64,000 nt of DNA, taken from contig VGWI01000004.1 of assembly GCA_016873655.1 (NCBI GenBank), forward strand, positions 1 through 64,000. Reading direction: 5' to 3'. The first letter of the stretch is position 1. The number at the start of each line of letters is the position of its first letter. The position numbers were made by a program, and so were the translations under genes. The notes under the pieces are model-generated. The model saw nothing but the letters and a program-made list of their open reading frames with translations. It was not told the DNA's origin and searched no databases. Shown here in pieces: positions 2 through 62,484 of the stretch. This DNA is from Lentisphaerota bacterium (GTDB lineage Bacteria; Verrucomicrobiota; Kiritimatiellia; UBA8416; VGWI01).

Positions 2-3000
2 TTTGTGGCGAATGAAGTGCGAGTGGGCGGACGCGGCAGCGCGGGGCAGGGCATGCTCGGCATGTTTGACGAGTTTGCGCTGCTGGATCGGGCGATGGGC
101 GACCGCGATGTGTACTCGATGTACGTCAGCCCGCAGTCGCTGCTTTTCCAGGCCAGGTCGGCGCCTGGTCCGGGTGAATTGGGCGGGAAGTTGTTCGTGG
201 GGCCGGACGGCACGGAGGGGACATTCTACAGCGCAAGGAACAGCGATCTGCAGAACTCGACTGCGTTCAGCCGGATTGAGCGTTATCTGCAGTACAAGGT
301 GTATATGATCGGGCAGAGCGACGGAAAGGAGACGCCCTATCTCGATTCGACCGGGGTGATCGGGACCAGAAGCGTTGCATTCGACAACACCCTCGGCGAT
401 TTCGCTGTGGGGGCGGGCCTGAGCGGGGTCGTCTTTGTGCCCGGATCCGAGGAACGCGGTCGGCTGGTTCTGGCCAGGAATTCCAACGGCGGATTCAGGA
501 AGGACGGCTACTACACATCGCGGACCTTCGATGCCGGAATCAGCGTGTTCTGGGACAAGCTGAACTGGATCGGGCCTTCCGAACTGGCTGCCTCCTCGTC
601 CATGCTTGGCCTGTGGCACGTCAACGGTGGATGGGCGGATGCGACCGGCAAGGGCAGGAACGGCCAGGCCCTGACAAACATGGCCTACTACTCGAAGGCC
701 AAGCTTGGATCGCAGTCGGCGGTGTTTGACGGCGTCTCGACACGGGTATCGCTTCCATTGCCGACGAACAGCATTGGCGCGGTGGAGTTCTGGGTGAACC
801 CGGCCGGTGCGGACGGCGGCCTGATGGACTTCGGCGGCGGGCGCCAGTTCATGGTGCGCGGGCGGATGGCGGCTGTGACGGGTTTCGGGTTCGCGGGACC
901 GCTTGTGTATCTCAACGGCAGGCAGAATGCGAGGCTTCTTGAGCGCGGTTGGAACCACGTTGCCGTCGTGTTCCCCAACGGCTTTGCGGTTTCATCGCCG
1001 ATAGTTGTCGGGTATGCGGGAGGGCTGTGGTTCAGGGGGATGCTGGACGAGATAGCGATGTACTCGGTTGCCCTGGACGGCGGTGCGATCAAGTCTCATT
1101 TCCTGGCGGGAGGAGGCAGGGCCGCCGGGGCCGCGAAGTTCCAGGTGCGTGCCTCGAACACATTCCCAATCCCTGGCATAGTGCCCTTCGTGGGACCGGG
1201 CAACCTCCCGTCAGACTATTTCACAGCTTCCGGTGCGGCACTGCCATCCGAGGTGTGGGGTAAGCGGTATTTCCAGTACAGATCATTCCTGGAGGGCGAT
1301 GGAGATGCGACTCCTCACGTGAATTCGGTCAGCATTGAGTACAGCGGCGCCGCTTCCGGAATCGAGACTGACGGTTCCGCGGCCCAACTCCTGCAGGGAG
1401 TGTTCTCCAACACGAAATGGTTGGGCACCGACCAGAGCCCATACGACATAGCGACTGTTCCGGGCCTTGTGAACATAGACAGTGTTGTTGAGGTGTCAAT
1501 TGAGGGGCTGTGGCACATGGATGAGACGAACTGGGCTGCGGGTGCTTCAGTTCTGGACTCCTCCGGAAAGAACCGCAATGGCGACCCGCAGGGCGGGGCA
1601 TCGCCGAGTCCCGCTGCGAAGGTGGGGACGGCCAGCGGGCTCTTCAACGGGTCGGGTCAGTATGTGATTCTTCCGTCCGCCGACCTTGCCGGCGATTTCA
1701 CAGCCGGCGCATGGTTCAGGTCCACGGCAACAGCACGTTCGGCTGTCATGGTCAGGACAGACGGGGGGTTCATTCTGGAGATCAACGGGAACGGCAGTGC
1801 GGCTGTGGCGGGGGCGGCGGCCTTCATCGTCCAACTTCCGGGGAAACGCGCAGTGGCGACCTCAGCCGCAGCCAGTTCGCTGAGTGACGGCGCTTGGCAC
1901 CATATCGCGGGGATCAGGAAGGGCAGAGGGATCTATCTCTACATTGACGGCACACGGGTTGCATCCGCGTTGTTGGCGTCCGATTTCGGCGGGCTGGGAG
2001 TCGGGCAAATGGAGGTTGCGCGCAACCCGGAGACCCCGCCAGGTTACTTCGCCGGGAACGTTGATGAAGTCATCCTCTATTCGAGGGCGCTTTCGGACGC
2101 GGAAATCGTCGAGAAGACGGCGGTTGGTTTCAACATAAGGAACCAGGTTACATTTGAAAGCACGGTCTATGATGCGGACGGGCCCGCGATCTGGGAGAGC
2201 ATCGCGTGGGGCGAGAACGGGCCATTCGGCGACGCTCCGTCCGCTTCCGATCCTGACCTGATAGGGCTGTGGCGGCTGGATTCCGTCACGCCGGGAGGAG
2301 TCGCTGTTGATTCCTCCGCCGCTGCGCAGAACGGAGCGTACTCGGGCAGCGCCGCGGCTGGAGCGGGCCGGTTCAGCGGCTGCATGAGCCTTTCCGGCGC
2401 CGGCGGCGGGGTCACTGTAACCGGGTCCGCGACCCTTGAACCCGAGTTAGTGTCCATTTCGTTGTGGGTAAACATGACCGACGTTGACAGCCGGGCGCTT
2501 ATTGAGAAGCGCTCAGGCGGCAACGGATATGCCATCTATACCGACGCTTCGGGTCGGCCCTCATTCTGGGTGAACGGGAGTTCGTGTACTTGGGCGGGGG
2601 GCATGCGGGCTTCGGAATGGACCCATGTTGCCGCTGTCTATGACGGGCAGAGGATCTATCTTTATGTGAACGGGAAGCAGGTTGCGGACGGTCTTGCTTC
2701 CGGCGATTTCCTCGGAGGCAACCTGCTGATAGGGTCTTCATCATCCGGCTACCAGGGATTCACCGGTTTGATTGACGAGGTGGCGGTCTACAAGCGAGCG
2801 TTTGTTCCGGAAGAGGCGGCGGATCACGCCAAGATGGGATTTGGGAACATCCGGATCCAGGCCAGGGCTGGGAACAGCCCGGACCTGTCCGGGGTTGCCT
2901 ACATAGGCAGGGATGGAACAAGCGGGTCATTCTTTGACGACTCAAACGAGTCCTCGATGTTCGGCATTGTGCCGCTTGGTCAGTATTTTCAGTTCCGCTA

Positions 3001-56491: not shown

Positions 56492-56615
56492 TGATGTCTT
56501 CCTGTAGCCTCGGCACGCCAGCCTTCGCTTGCTGTTGAGACGGCGAGCTACGGCTCGGCACGCCAGGGCCGCGTTGCCGAGGGGAGGGGCGCGCCCCTGC
56601 GTGGCGCGGCTACAG
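56492..56615. repeat. Dispersed intergenic repeat family A, copy 1 (~124 bp)
   Basis: tgatgtcttcctgtagcc...gccttcgcttgctgttga...cagggccgcgttgccgaggggaggggcgcgcccctgcgtggcgcggctacag. Confidence 0.85.
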
Positions 56616-56630
56616 ATAGGGAATCAAGAC

Positions 56631-56707
56631 TGGTGGGCGATACAGGACTCGAACCTGTGACATTCACGGTGTAAACGTGACGCTCTAACCAACTGAGCTA
56701 ATCGCCC
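56631..56707 (-). tRNA. tRNA-Val (anticodon TAC), encoded CCA
   Basis: Minus strand GGGCGATTAGCTCAGTTGGTTAGAGCGTCACGTTTACACCGTGAATGTCACAGGTTCGAGTCCTGTATCGCCCACCA. Confidence 0.96.
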
Positions 56708-56720
56708 CGGGAATGCGCGG

Positions 56721-56749
56721 AGAATACACGAGCCGGTCAGCCCCTTCAA
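56721..56749 (-). promoter_or_regulatory. Sigma70-like promoter for tRNA-Val
   Basis: Minus strand TTGAAG-17 nt-TATTCT just upstream of the tRNA. Confidence 0.6.
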
Positions 56750-56819
56750 GAGTTGCGGCGTGGCGAACCGATCTGTTACGTTGCGCCCATTCGCAGGCTG
56801 CGGGAAGGCCGGGAAAATC

Positions 56820-57461
56820 ATGACTTCGACGGGAACGGATTCGAGACTGAAGCTGGCTGTGCTGGGGTCAGGGCGGGGCACGAATCTGCAATCAATCATG
56901 GACGCCTGCGCGGGAGGCGCGATTCCCGTCCAAGTGGTCTGCGTGCTCTCCGACGTGAAGGATGCATACATTCTCGAGAGAGCCCGGCATGGCGGAATAC
57001 CGGCGGAATTCGTGGATGCCGGGCCTTTTCGGACGAAACTCGAGGGGGCGGGTGAGAAGCGCTACATTGAGCGGTTGCGTCACTACGGGGCGGAGGCTGT
57101 GGCGCTGGCGGGCTTCATGCGTATCGTGAAGCGTGGGTTGCTGGATGCTTTCCGGGGCAGGATACTGAACATACACCCCGCCCTTCTGCCTGCGTTCCCG
57201 GGGCTGGAGTCATGGAAACAGGCGCTTGACTACGGGGCCAAGGTGGCGGGCTGCACGGTGCATCTTGTGGACGAGGGGACAGACACCGGACCGATAGTTG
57301 TGCAGCGCGCCGTGCCGGTTCTTGAAGACGACACACCCGAAACGCTTCACGCCCGCATACAGGAACAGGAACACATCGCATACCCGGAGGCCCTTCGCGC
57401 TCTTGCCTCGCGCCGGGTCAGAATCGAAGGAAGGCGCGTGCGGATGGGACAGAAGGCCTGA
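56820..57461 (+). CDS. purN: Phosphoribosylglycinamide formyltransferase
   Basis: LAVLGSGRGTNLQSIMDAC; VALAGFMRIV; ILNIHPALLPAFPG; GCTVHLVDEGTDTGPIVVQRAVPV. Confidence 0.95.
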   Translation: MTSTGTDSRLKLAVLGSGRGTNLQSIMDACAGGAIPVQVVCVLSDVKDAYILERARHGGIPAEFVDAGPFRTKLEGAGEKRYIERLRHYGAEAVALAGFMRIVKRGLLDAFRGRILNIHPALLPAFPGLESWKQALDYGAKVAGCTVHLVDEGTDTGPIVVQRAVPVLEDDTPETLHARIQEQEHIAYPEALRALASRRVRIEGRRVRMGQKA

Positions 57462-57601
57462 GCGACGGAATCAGCGCTGAGATTCTGTGTGGGTTGCGGT
57501 GGTCGTGGAATGTCACGCCACAATGGGACGCTCAATAGGTCCACGGATCGCTCTTCCTGCCCTCGCTTCACCGGCCTTCGTCCGCTGACGCAGGACTACG
57601 C

Positions 57602-57663
57602 CGCGGGTTGGAGCCGGGGCGACTGCGCCCCGGTTCTTCCGGCCTGAGGTCGGGCTGGCTCCA
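57602..57663. repeat. Dispersed repeat family B, divergent copy
   Basis: gcgggttggagccggggcgactgcgccccggttcttccggcctgaggtcgggctggctccagg. Confidence 0.65.
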
Positions 57664-57694
57664 GGAGGTCGTCGCGCTTTGGCGCGGCGGAAGG

Positions 57695-58684
57695 TCAGTC
57701 CCGTTCCGGGTCGGGGCCGGTGCTTTCCGCCAGCCAGGCTTCTTCCGATTCGTGGACGCAGCCGGGGTTGCGGCAGTACTTCACGCGCCTGTCGTATCGG
57801 ATGGAAATGAACGCCCTGCGGCATGCCCTGCAACGGCGCACGTGCGGACGGGCCACGATAAGGCGCTTCAGCAGCGGGAGCGAATTCGCGCCGTCCGGCG
57901 GGAATTCGGCCTGATCGAACTCGGGTTCGGCGAGCCTCTCGCCGGCGATCGGCTTCATCCATTCAGAGCAATCCCAGCCCAGCATCTCCTGCAATCTGGC
58001 GATGTCGGGCGCGAAGGAGCGAAGCAGCCGCGCGCGGGTTTGGGGCGGCACCGGATCGTAGTTCTGGGAGAAAATGCTGCGGGGCTCAGGCATGTGCGCG
58101 CCGACATCCACTTCCAGGAACCCGTAAACGCGGCGCAGGACGTCGTGGTGCCGTCGCTGCAGGTCTTCGTTCTTGATGCAGAGAACCTGCGATTCAGGGA
58201 ATACCGACAGGATACGTTCGATCTGAGGCGCGTAGAACCCCCGGTCAACGTAGGAGTGTACGCGGTCCGGGAACGGCCAGACCGCGCGGCGACGGTCCTT
58301 CTCGATCCCGATTGCCTGTTCGAACGGCAGTTTCTCCGCGCCGCGCTTGAGTTCCATCTGGTAGTGCGACCACGCGCGGTCAACCGGGTTGCGCAACAGG
58401 ATGATGAGCTTCATTTCGGGGTTGTAGGCGTGAATGCGCCGGGCCGTTGCCGGCCAGTATGAGTAGGCGGGGGTTGTTTCGCCCGCGAAGCGTTTGCCGT
58501 CCATGTCGAAGCACCGGTGATAGATATCGAATGGAGGGGTCTTCCTGGCGAAGAACTCCTCGTGGTCGAAGAAATGGGTCTCGCGCTTGCGCGAGAGGGC
58601 GAGTTCCGGATGGCCGCGCAGGAACCCGGTAAGCGCCGTCGTGCCGCCTTTCTGGACTCCGGCTATGCAGAAGGCCGTTTTCAC
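57695..58684 (-). CDS. Sulfotransferase-family protein with C-terminal Cys-rich (zinc-ribbon-like) extension
   Basis: FCIAGVQKGGTTALTGFL (PSB loop), IILLRNPVDRAWSHYQME (3'-PB), C-terminal CRACRRAFISIRYDRRVKYCRNPGC. Confidence 0.88.
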   Translation of the reverse strand: MKTAFCIAGVQKGGTTALTGFLRGHPELALSRKRETHFFDHEEFFARKTPPFDIYHRCFDMDGKRFAGETTPAYSYWPATARRIHAYNPEMKLIILLRNPVDRAWSHYQMELKRGAEKLPFEQAIGIEKDRRRAVWPFPDRVHSYVDRGFYAPQIERILSVFPESQVLCIKNEDLQRRHHDVLRRVYGFLEVDVGAHMPEPRSIFSQNYDPVPPQTRARLLRSFAPDIARLQEMLGWDCSEWMKPIAGERLAEPEFDQAEFPPDGANSLPLLKRLIVARPHVRRCRACRRAFISIRYDRRVKYCRNPGCVHESEEAWLAESTGPDPERD

Positions 58685-59799
58685 CGCGGCGATTCTCCGG
58701 GCTCTGCAAGAAGTGATGCCAGGTCCAGACTCTCAACCAGGCCGCGCAGGCGGGAGACCGCTTCGGCGGCCTGTGTTCCGGTGCGGATGGAGGACGATCC
58801 ATCAGCCACGGCGGCGAGGATCGAGTCGCTCACCGCCGGGGAGAAGTGGGTGAGGTCTTTGTAGTTCGAGAAGTCGCATACCACGGATGCGTCGGCCTGA
58901 AAATCGAAGACACTGATGTTGGGGTGCGATATGAGCTCGGAGATCAGGAACGCCTTGAACGCAAGGACGTCCTCAAGCCAGCCCTTTCGCCGCATGTCTT
59001 CCCAGGCAAGAATGGAGTAAGGAGGAAAGAAGACCGCGATATGGACATCCGACGACCGGTTGAGGAGCGGTCGGACGAAGCGTCGGTAGTTCCTTTTCAG
59101 AGCGTCCAGGCTGTGGGTTTCCGGCCTGTAGGAACGGTGGAAGGTGCCGCGCCGCCATTCAGCGAGAACCTGTTCGCGTCCGTATGTGTAGCGCCCGCCG
59201 GAAAACGCGAGGTTGTCCCAGTCAAAGTGCTCAGGCCACAGCCCGAACGCCCGGCCTATCAGCGTCTTGACCGAGAGAACGGCGGCATCCGGGTCAAGGA
59301 GGTATCGGTAGTCGTCCCACGGCGTGTTGTTGTACAGGTGGGCCGGCATCCGGCTCAGTCCTGTATCATTGTCAGAAAACGAGTACACGTCCACGCCCCA
59401 GATGATTCGCCGGACCGTCGGCGCCGCAAGGGCAAGAGAGAGGATCGAGGCCTGTTCCTCGATGGTTGCTCCGTTCACGGCAACGTTGGCGGCCATGCCC
59501 GGGGAAGAAGCCTCAATCTGCGACGGACGTATGTCGCGCACCATGGATGTGCCTACAACGACTGTTTCGCACGGACGGTGAGAGAGGAGTCCGGGGATTA
59601 TGGATCGGATTGAGCGGAGGGTGCCCTTCAGGTAAGGCGGGCGACCGTGCCGTCCGTCGCGGTAGTGGAGGAGGGGGTCCACCGCAAAATTGAGCGCTGC
59701 TGCGGCGGCCGCCGTACCGAAGGTTACGGCCAGAACAATCGAGAACCACTTGCCGGGCGGCATGGCTTGCCGCACTTCCGAGCCGCAGTCAGGCGTCAT
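58681..59799 (-). CDS. Membrane-anchored SGNH/AlgJ-DHHW-like protein
   Basis: N-terminal TM; VVVGTSMVRDIRPSQIE; DFSNYKDLTHFSPAVSDSIL; 4-nt overlap with the sulfotransferase gene. Confidence 0.6.
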   Translation of the reverse strand: MTPDCGSEVRQAMPPGKWFSIVLAVTFGTAAAAAALNFAVDPLLHYRDGRHGRPPYLKGTLRSIRSIIPGLLSHRPCETVVVGTSMVRDIRPSQIEASSPGMAANVAVNGATIEEQASILSLALAAPTVRRIIWGVDVYSFSDNDTGLSRMPAHLYNNTPWDDYRYLLDPDAAVLSVKTLIGRAFGLWPEHFDWDNLAFSGGRYTYGREQVLAEWRRGTFHRSYRPETHSLDALKRNYRRFVRPLLNRSSDVHIAVFFPPYSILAWEDMRRKGWLEDVLAFKAFLISELISHPNISVFDFQADASVVCDFSNYKDLTHFSPAVSDSILAAVADGSSSIRTGTQAAEAVSRLRGLVESLDLASLLAEPGESPR

Positions 59800-60176
59800 T
59801 CGTAAACGGTCCAGTTGGACACGGCGGGGCCGGCGGGGCCGTTGGTCATGACAAGTTTGCTGCGCACGACGGTGATGTCAAAGAGCGACGAAGCGCCCGT
59901 CCCTATTGTTTCCTCGTAAATCCATACCTCGCTCGCGACGGCTTCGCTCTTGATCGGTTCCTTCCTGGTCGGGGTGCCCCAGCACAGTCCGGCTTCCATC
60001 GTATTCATGCCTGCCACAAGACGGCCGGACTTCACGGCTTCCTTGATCTCTTCCGGCCGGTCCTTGTGCGTCCTGCCGTACCAGGACCGCATGCAGTTCC
60101 GGTATGTCTCGGCAGGGGTTGTGGCGCAGCCGGCCATGAAGAGCATTGCGAGGCCAATCAGCAAGGCGATTCTCAT
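59796..60176 (-). CDS. Small lipoprotein with BamE/SmpA-like motif
   Basis: Lipobox LFMAGC; VAGMNTMEAGLCWGTPTRK; 4-nt overlap with the SGNH gene. Confidence 0.65.
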   Translation of the reverse strand: MRIALLIGLAMLFMAGCATTPAETYRNCMRSWYGRTHKDRPEEIKEAVKSGRLVAGMNTMEAGLCWGTPTRKEPIKSEAVASEVWIYEETIGTGASSLFDITVVRSKLVMTNGPAGPAVSNWTVYE

Positions 60177-60310
60177 AGGTTCCTCCCCTACGGGCATGAC
60201 TTCAACGCGGTGCATTCGTCGTGCGGCAAGGAAACCGTGTGCGGCGTCATGGGGCAAGCAAATAGTGACCTTCCTCACCGGCGACGCAGGCCCGCCTGCA
60301 ACCTGCCCGT

Positions 60311-60346
60311 AGTGGTTCTCCCGGCCCGGGGTCGGGCCGGCTCCAG
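60311..60346. repeat. Dispersed repeat family B
   Basis: gtggttctcccggcccggggtcgggccggctcca; internal palindrome CCGGCCCG-GGGT-CGGGCCGG. Confidence 0.85.
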
Positions 60347-60400
60347 TTGGTCGAGGTGATCGCGGGTTGGAGGGGCGCAGGTCTCTGTGACCGATCGGGC

Positions 60401-60523
60401 TGATGTCTTCCTGTAACCGCGGCGCGCCAGCCTTCGCTTGCTGTTGACGCGGCGAGCAACGTCTCGTCACGCAGGGCCGCGTTGCCGAGGGGAGGGGCGC
60501 GCCCCTGCGTGGCGCGGCTACAG
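60401..60523. repeat. Dispersed intergenic repeat family A, copy 2 (~123 bp)
   Basis: Near-identical to 56492-56615, including gccttcgcttgctgttga and gccgcgttgccgaggggaggggcgcgcccctgcgtggcgcggctacag. Confidence 0.88.
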
Positions 60524-60556
60524 GACTGCAGGTCAATCTGTCGGGGATGGCAAAAC

Positions 60557-60584
60557 GGCGCGCCCCTGCGTGGCGCGGCTACAG
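60557..60584. repeat. Family A partial copy (3' end)
   Basis: ggcgcgcccctgcgtggcgcggctacag. Confidence 0.8.
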
Positions 60585-60597
60585 AACCCGGTGGGGC

Positions 60598-60661
60598 GCG
60601 GGTTGGAGCGCGGGGCGACCGTGCAGTGGTTCTCCCGGCCCGGGGTCGGGCCGGCTCCATC
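60598..60661. repeat. Dispersed repeat family B
   Basis: gcgggttggagcgcggggcgaccgtgcagtggttctcccggcccggggtcgggccggctcca. Confidence 0.85.
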
Positions 60662-60919
60662 TGGGAGCGTGGCGACCACGCGGTGCCTTGGAGATGCCGT
60701 GCCACCCGAAGGCGGGGGGCTGATACATTTCTTTTACACTTCTGTCATGCGTGGGTGACAAGCCGTCTCGCTCGCTGTGTTTCAGTGACGCCGATGAAAG
60801 GGAGAGGCGTCCATGGCAACAGTGATGGCGACGCAGCCCAATCCGCGGTGGCGGCAGGACGCCGATCCGGGTACATTCCACGCGGGGTACGGGCGCGGGC
60901 GCTGAAGGGGAGGTGTCCG

Positions 60920-62269
60920 ATGAGTACGGTGTTGAAGAGAGTGGCGGTTGCCGGTCTGGTTCTGCTTGCGGCGGGCGCCGAGGCGGCGAAGACGAAGTCC
61001 GCGGACAGCAGCGTGGTGAAGTGCACGGTTGAACTGGACCGGGCATTGCTGACGGCCGGACGGACGCACAAGGCGGTGGTCAGGATATCGCTGGACGCGG
61101 ACCAGGTTGTGAGGGCGGGTGAGCGTGCGCCTGTGAACCTGGCGGTTGTGCTGGACCGGTCGGGGTCCATGGGCGGCGAGAAGCTGGAGAAGGCCAAGGA
61201 AGCCGCAATTGAAGCGCTGCGCCGACTGGATGGGCGGGATATCTTCTCTCTCGTGGTCTACGAAAGCAACGTGGAGACGGTTGTGCCGGCGCAGAGCGCG
61301 GCGAATACCGAGTGGATTGAGGCTCGGATCAGGAGCATTCGCACCGGCGGCAGCACGGCGCTGTTCGGCGGGGTAAGCCAGGGCGCCGCCGAAGTCCGCA
61401 AAAACCTCGACAAGGAATACGTCAACAGGGTGATTCTGCTCTCCGACGGACTGGCAAACGTCGGGCCGAGATCGCCTGAGGACCTCGGGCGGCTTGGAAC
61501 TGGCCTGATGAAGGAGGGGATATCCGTAACGACAGTTGGTGTCGGAAAAGACTACAACGAGGACCTGATGGCGAGGCTTGCGCAGAACAGCGACGGCAAC
61601 ACGTACTTCGCGGAATCGAGCCGTGACCTGCCCCGCATATTCAAGGCTGAACTTGGCGACGTCCTCAGCGTTGTGGCCAGGGACGTGAACCTGATCATCG
61701 AATGCCCCGAAGGAGTGAGGCCCGTCGGCGTGATAGGGCGGGACGTTTCCGTGCGCGGCCGGACGGTTGAGGTGGCCCTGAACCAGCTCTACGGCGGCCA
61801 GAAGAAGTTCGCGCTGCTGGAGGTGGAGATACCGTCCGGTGCGGCCGGCGAAAGCAGGCCGGTGGCATCCGCGATGGTGCGGTATGAGAATCTTGTGAAC
61901 CAGAAGCGTGAAGAATCGTCGGCCAGCGTCGAGGTGAGTTTCACGGCGGTGGTCGAGGAGGCGGAAAAGTCGGTGAACGCGGAGGTGAAGAAAGACGTTG
62001 AACTGAATCTCGCCGCCAGGGCGCAGGATGACGCCATCACTCTGGCCGACCAGGGCAAGGCGGGAGAGGCCGCCCAGGCCCTCAGGCAGGCTGCCGAAAG
62101 CCTGAAGAAGACGGCAGAGAAGCTGGACGACAGTGAGCTGGCGGAAAAGGCCCAGGAGGCCGAGAAGCAGGCAGCCGCTATCGAGGCCAACAGCGGGATG
62201 ACGAGGGAGCAGAGAAAGACACTGAGGGCGGATTCGTACAGGACATACAACCAGCAGTCCGCCCAGTAG
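60920..62269 (+). CDS. Exported von Willebrand factor A domain protein
   Basis: Signal peptide; MIDAS DRSGSMGGEK; RIRSIRTGGSTALFGGV; VILLSDGLANVGPRSPEDL; charged helical C-terminus. Confidence 0.93.
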   Translation: MSTVLKRVAVAGLVLLAAGAEAAKTKSADSSVVKCTVELDRALLTAGRTHKAVVRISLDADQVVRAGERAPVNLAVVLDRSGSMGGEKLEKAKEAAIEALRRLDGRDIFSLVVYESNVETVVPAQSAANTEWIEARIRSIRTGGSTALFGGVSQGAAEVRKNLDKEYVNRVILLSDGLANVGPRSPEDLGRLGTGLMKEGISVTTVGVGKDYNEDLMARLAQNSDGNTYFAESSRDLPRIFKAELGDVLSVVARDVNLIIECPEGVRPVGVIGRDVSVRGRTVEVALNQLYGGQKKFALLEVEIPSGAAGESRPVASAMVRYENLVNQKREESSASVEVSFTAVVEEAEKSVNAEVKKDVELNLAARAQDDAITLADQGKAGEAAQALRQAAESLKKTAEKLDDSELAEKAQEAEKQAAAIEANSGMTREQRKTLRADSYRTYNQQSAQ

Positions 62270-62331
62270 GTCCGGCGGTGGCGACGTGATCGCGGTGGGG
62301 GTGGCCGCTCTTGGGCCGGCGCGGGGGGGGC

Positions 62332-62387
62332 TGGGGCCGGGGCGGTCGCGCCCCGGTTCTCCCGGCCCGGGGTCGGGCCGGATCCAG
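62332..62387. repeat. Dispersed repeat family B
   Basis: gctggggccggggcggtcgcgccccggttctcccggcccggggtcgggccggatccaggg. Confidence 0.82.
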
Positions 62388-62484
62388 GGAAAAACATCCG
62401 GCGCGGTAAACTCGCCGGGGCAGGGATGGGTCGCGGGAAGGCGCCGCGGACTCGCAGGCTCTGCAGCGCGCAAGGAGGAACGGC

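Follow-up and report, generated by a model that had tools for sequence, protein, structure and literature searches.

By definition, a REP element combines the tetranucleotide GT[A/G]G with a palindrome next to it (PMC3686654). REPs tagged GTAG have been described from more than 80 species, Opitutus among them (PMC3733652). Genes for RAYTs with flanking REPs have been classified using a descriptor that demanded GTAG or GTGG (PMC6006769). The GTAG-tagged elements include the GTAG superfamily of Di Nocera 2013 with Stenotrophomonas SMAG, the REP/BIME elements of E. coli, and the REPINs of Pseudomonas. GTGG-tagged REPs, such as those of Pseudomonas and GTAG-20 of Opitutus terrae, carry a variant tag on an otherwise ordinary REP hairpin. 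REP-like elements with other tags also exist, namely the CGTC REPs and the CnGA hairpins of class 3 TnpA-Y1 transposases. GGAG as a REP tag was not found in the REP literature searched, nor was a paper linking REPs with Kiritimatiellota; many subscription papers lay outside both searches, and absence from them is not proof.

The stretch of DNA analyzed here (the window) is 64,000 nucleotides long and forms part of contig C4 in a 3.08-Mb draft genome of 243 contigs that is 94% complete. Judged by its HisG, which shares only about 66% identity with the closest named relatives, the organism appears to be a PVC bacterium of a Kiritimatiellota/Verrucomicrobiota-like kind. Within 6 kb of the window, two families of palindromic repeats lie between genes. 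We consider it very probable that both are REP-type elements in which each unit consists of a tag and a hairpin, predicted to be spread in trans by a RAYT. Family A, judged by its sequence, is a canonical GTAG REP belonging to a new sequence family. It differs from the GTAG-tagged REPs listed above in its 7-nt loop of the ACGAAGG type, in its occurrence in a Kiritimatiellota/Verrucomicrobiota-like lineage, and in comprising only 38 units with no cognate RAYT found in the assembly. Family B is most aptly described as a REP variant with a GGAG tag, REP-like yet outside the GT[A/G]G definition. Like the GTGG-tagged REPs, it combines a variant tag with an ordinary REP hairpin; the third base of the tag is altered in those elements, whereas in family B it is the second. 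The CGTC and CnGA elements differ from it in their tags.

The copies in the window are listed in Table 1, and the similarity among them is far above chance level. A first-pass annotation of this DNA had described family A as an element of about 124 bp with two copies and a partial third, and family B as present at four places. All three positions of family A are real. The 124-bp length, however, is that of a composite, and the true unit is a 25-nt tagged hairpin, which also occurs alone as the supposed partial copy. The four places given for family B are real as well, but that at 60311 is only half a copy and that at 62332 is degenerate.

Table 1. Repeat copies, their units and a neighboring gene in the window
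Feature	Position	Strand	Remarks
Family A long copy, REPIN/BIME-like composite	56492..56615	-	Between hisG and tRNA-Val
Ends of this copy	56503; 56610-56614		TGTAGCC on + at 56503; CTACA at 56610-56614
A unit, GTAG tag and hairpin	56590..56614	-	TGTAGC-CGCGCC-ACGCAGG-GGCGCG; covariance-model match, E 1.4e-5
tRNA-Val (tac)	56631..56707	-	Neighboring gene
Family B inverted pair	57602..57665	+	B1, linker, B2
B1 unit of this pair	57609-57632	+	TGGAGC-CGGGGCG-ACTG-CGCCCCG
B2 unit of this pair	57640-57663	-	
Half B copy, right half only	60311..60345	-	Single B2 unit 60322-60345, TGGAGC-CGGCCCG-ACCC-CGGGCCG; covariance-model match
Truncated B start (GCGGGTTGGAGGGGCGC), hairpin lost	60362..60378	+	Read from the sequence; repeat listing
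Family A long copy	60401..60523	-	93% identical to the 56492 copy, E 2.5e-46
A unit of this copy	60498..60522	-	Covariance-model match
Solo A unit (partial copy of the first-pass annotation)	60557-60584; unit 60559..60583	-	100% identity; covariance-model match
Family B pair	about 60597..60661	+	Degenerate B1 (60604 on) and intact B2, 60636-60659 (-)
Degenerate family B pair	62328..62388	+	Both tags mutated, stems kept; TGGGGCC...GGATCCA ends

Both families are built from units of 24-25 nt in which a 5' tag precedes a covarying hairpin. The A unit (25 nt) consists of TGTAGC, a 6-bp stem, and a 7-nt loop that is commonly ACGAAGG. TGTAGC is invariant among the selected units, and the base before the tag was C in 20 of 20 units sampled. 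The B unit (24 nt) consists of TGGAGC, a 7-bp stem, and an ACCN loop. It has two forms with swapped stem centers (GGGGCG/CGCCCC and GGCCCG/CGGGCC), which mostly face each other over a pyrimidine-rich linker as an inverted pair. Units of the two families stand singly, in inverted pairs resembling REPINs and BIMEs (above all in family B), or in clusters.

The strong inverted repeats noted in the first-pass annotation correspond to hairpins whose stems change by compensation. In family A, two-sided changes were seen in five of six stem pairs (35 cells changed on both sides, none on one side only), and 96% of cells were paired, compared to 65% in shuffles; in family B, they were seen in five of seven pairs, with 97.7% of cells paired compared to 74.5%. 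The rows entering these counts had been selected with a pattern that tolerated up to two stem mismatches, which favors pairing, and a few of them came from relatives. Slid controls drop to a small fraction. Covarying stems would also be expected of structured RNAs or mRNA-stabilizing elements selected as RNA, and an mRNA role has been proposed for REPs elsewhere (PMC3733652). Selection on one RNA strand would, however, permit G-U intermediates in the A stem, and none was present among the 35 two-sided changes. Neither CRISPR nor Rfam searches gave a match at the repeats, and the units stand in both orientations relative to the neighboring genes. The lack of G-U steps is more in keeping with a hairpin important in DNA, or on either strand, than with one needed on a single RNA strand. 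The first-pass annotation had raised RNA structures as an option; a strand-specific RNA role is not favored, and we regard selection as RNA as very unlikely.

Across the genome, 38 A and 30 B units were detected by covariance models whose training set included some of these same units. A third long A copy is located on contig C70, so that three nearly full long copies are present, and further B copies are found on C3, C24, C36, C81, C92, and C164. Both families are therefore dispersed over many contigs and not restricted to the locus in the window. Clustering within 6 kb, as originally reported, is real, but comparable clusters occur on C92, on C164, and at the end of C3. One of them, L100 (G000:C164:1-3741), contains at 1584-2710 a 1.1-kb intergenic array of 10 A and B units, mixed and in both orientations. 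The small size of this contig suggests that the assembly breaks at such repeat arrays. Among the 31 genomes of the same order examined, B units were counted in G014 (107), G003 (66), G023 (32), and G026 (19), and A units in G027 (14) and G030 (11), a distribution that is patchy across the families of the order. Beside the usual REP copy number of more than 100 per genome, the present genome has modest numbers, 38 A and 30 B units, and G014 and G003 have 107 and 66 B units, respectively.

The claim that the repeats sit only between genes was borne out in a sample of 387 kb of the same genome. With a simple hexamer gene caller, about 90% of this DNA was called coding, and none of the 38 sampled units had its midpoint inside a called gene. 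Bidirectional transcription stops, whether intrinsic terminators or other hairpins multiplied through duplication, would likewise appear as GC-rich hairpins confined to intergenic DNA, and the first-pass annotation had suggested such a function. A terminator scan, however, returned four sites, compared to 5.0 expected from shuffles, and none was located at a repeat. A run of at least four T residues followed the hairpin in only one of 38 units. The units were as common in divergent gaps as in convergent ones (14 occupied gaps: six divergent, five convergent, and three tandem). Termination would also leave the invariant 5' tag and the association with RAYT genes unexplained. These observations speak against transcription termination as the main role, and we give the terminator explanation very little credence.

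The association with RAYT genes was found in relatives from the same order. In G030, a RAYT on C145 is flanked on both sides by TGTAGC-CGCGCCAC-GGA-GGGGCGCG, which is one base off the A unit of the window. In G014, the hairpins next to a RAYT on C437 are of the B type: one flank has TGGAGCCGGGACGCCCTCGTCCCG, and both have TGGAGGTGGCCCGCCCTCGGGCCGC. The G014 protein matches the NCBIfam model NF047646 for REP-associated tyrosine transposases with 92.2 bits (cut-off 80), stays below the cut-off of the IS200 model (28.5 versus 55), and matches the TnpA-REP structure PDB 4er8 by sequence. Its predicted fold (pLDDT 89) likewise had 4er8, in which a RAYT is in complex with a REP hairpin, as its top match (E 3.9e-10). 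Proteins of this type carry the HUH motif and the catalytic Tyr and are of the RAYT rather than the IS200 class. They resemble the TnpA-REP/RAYT proteins of described REPtrons (NF047646; 4er8) in their HUH and Tyr core, in their length of about 155 aa, in the kept residues W94, Q95, D100, and R104, and in having tagged hairpins on both sides of the gene. Class 3 transposases form a separate class, whereas the RAYTs associated with GGAG hairpins match the ordinary RAYT equivalog model.

A matching transposase is thus present in relatives, but no RAYT with A or B units was found in the present assembly, a draft that is 94% complete. The sole RAYT found in this genome is located on C50, among a third family of GGAG-tagged hairpins. 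It was overlooked by the Pfam Y1_Tnp model PF01797 and recovered with the proteins of relatives. At this locus, L190 (G000:C50:8607-12029), the gene occupies 1501-1923 (-), with six imperfect hairpins of the TGGAGGGCGA type around it, and its guide motif reads WLPDCWDTQIR, with L in place of Q95. Since the only RAYT found is set among a third family, A and B look orphaned in this genome. In G003, which has 66 B units, a search with two RAYT queries and a threshold of E 1e-6 returned no RAYT, so that this is apparently another REP population without its transposase. Three long Y1 transposases detected with PF01797 on C149, C58, and C32 were also considered as mobilizers and rejected, having no A or B units nearby. 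At L053 (G000:C149:279-3566), the region at about 780-2530 has a gene for a 353-aa Y1_Tnp protein with copies of GTCGTATGTCCAGATGTGACCCC around it, some of which are within a second, broken transposase-like gene; this element looks like a TIR type rather than a REP type. At L054 (G000:C58:6738-10028), a gene for a 372-aa Y1_Tnp protein lies between direct copies of CCTATTCTCCCCCTGCAATGTTTATTGTGAAGGGCTGACCCCAATGCGTCC at about 650 and 1930 and is inserted into an RHS/YD-repeat-like frame.

The first-pass annotation had taken the repeats as REP- or MITE-like and possibly mobilized in trans, and the tagged, covarying extragenic hairpins that flank RAYTs in relatives support the REP option and the spread in trans; mobilization itself is inferred. 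Were A and B instead MITEs belonging to a conventional DDE insertion sequence, their terminal inverted repeats would be the inverted CTGTAGCC...GGCTACAG and TGGAGCC...GGCTCCA ends. The three nearly full long A copies do carry inverted ends. The second end is often missing, however, and units are also seen singly as well as in arrays, whether tandem or mixed. Furthermore, each unit has its hairpin behind the tag, with compensatory changes in the stem, and the genes flanked by the units are HUH RAYTs. An origin as ordinary MITEs appears to us very unlikely. For REP-type elements, known RAYT systems offer a mechanism by analogy. A unit would fold once the DNA is single-stranded. The RAYT, also called TnpA-REP and a single-strand transposase of the HUH Y1 type, would bind the hairpin plus the tag and cut and join DNA near the tag. 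Copying in trans could then spread units into intergenic DNA. Cleavage, copying, and trans-mobilization would apply to A and B in the same way.

To determine which tags accompany RAYT genes without presuming any, we examined 139 different RAYT loci from the order and the class. Over a range of 900 nt, all 256 tetramers were scored at the base of repeated hairpins. GTAG (on both sides at 56 loci) and GGAG (at 44) were the two commonest, and 44 of the 139 loci received no tag. Neither of the two tags was called in any of 102 control regions (66 HisG regions and 36 random regions of the present genome). A search with the exact pattern TCTTYCTGTAGC was uninformative, as its backwards control gave more matches. 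In a RAYT tree from which the columns of the guide region were left out, the tag needs two changes, compared to a mean of 30.5 and a minimum of 22 in shuffles. One clade of 59 RAYTs, with an SH-aLRT support of only 89, contains 37 loci tagged GGAG, 22 untagged loci, and none tagged GTAG. Two loci outside it, L176 and L205, were called GGAG, and both score higher for GTGG. In the sub-branch of the GGAG clade that contains the G014 RAYT, the associated loops are CCCT, ACCC, or ACCT, which is also the type seen in family B.

According to PMC6006769, the residues of E. coli TnpA-REP that contact the GTAG guide include H101. The residue aligned to it is Thr (42), Arg (16), or Val (1) in the GGAG clade and never His, compared to His (71) or Arg (9) outside the clade. 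W94, Q95, D100, and R104 are nearly constant inside and outside the clade. The residues that change with it are 98, 99, 101, and 102, and the clade thus differs from described TnpA-REP proteins at 99 and 102 as well as at 101. This is a correlation in aligned sequences, and residue 101 would be a correlate of the tag rather than a proven determinant. With the tag having changed only about once or twice on the tree, a formal test based on independent pairs for a link between the tag and residue 101 is without power.

REPs are probably not confined to GT[A/G]G. The class seems to have a RAYT clade that uses GGAG hairpins, and the switch of the tag together with H101 to Thr or Arg may represent a natural rewiring of guide recognition by a single-strand transposase. 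As the published automated survey of REPs required a GTAG or GTGG tag, GGAG populations would escape it. The REP reading accounts for a class of intergenic hairpins that might be taken for terminators or RNAs, and the REP populations of this genome and of G003 appear to outlast their transposase. Should reading of the tag work in the proposed way, RAYT/REP pairs matched for two different tags, along with the few changed residues (98, 99, 101, and 102), would offer a direct test of how these HUH enzymes read a guide tetranucleotide.
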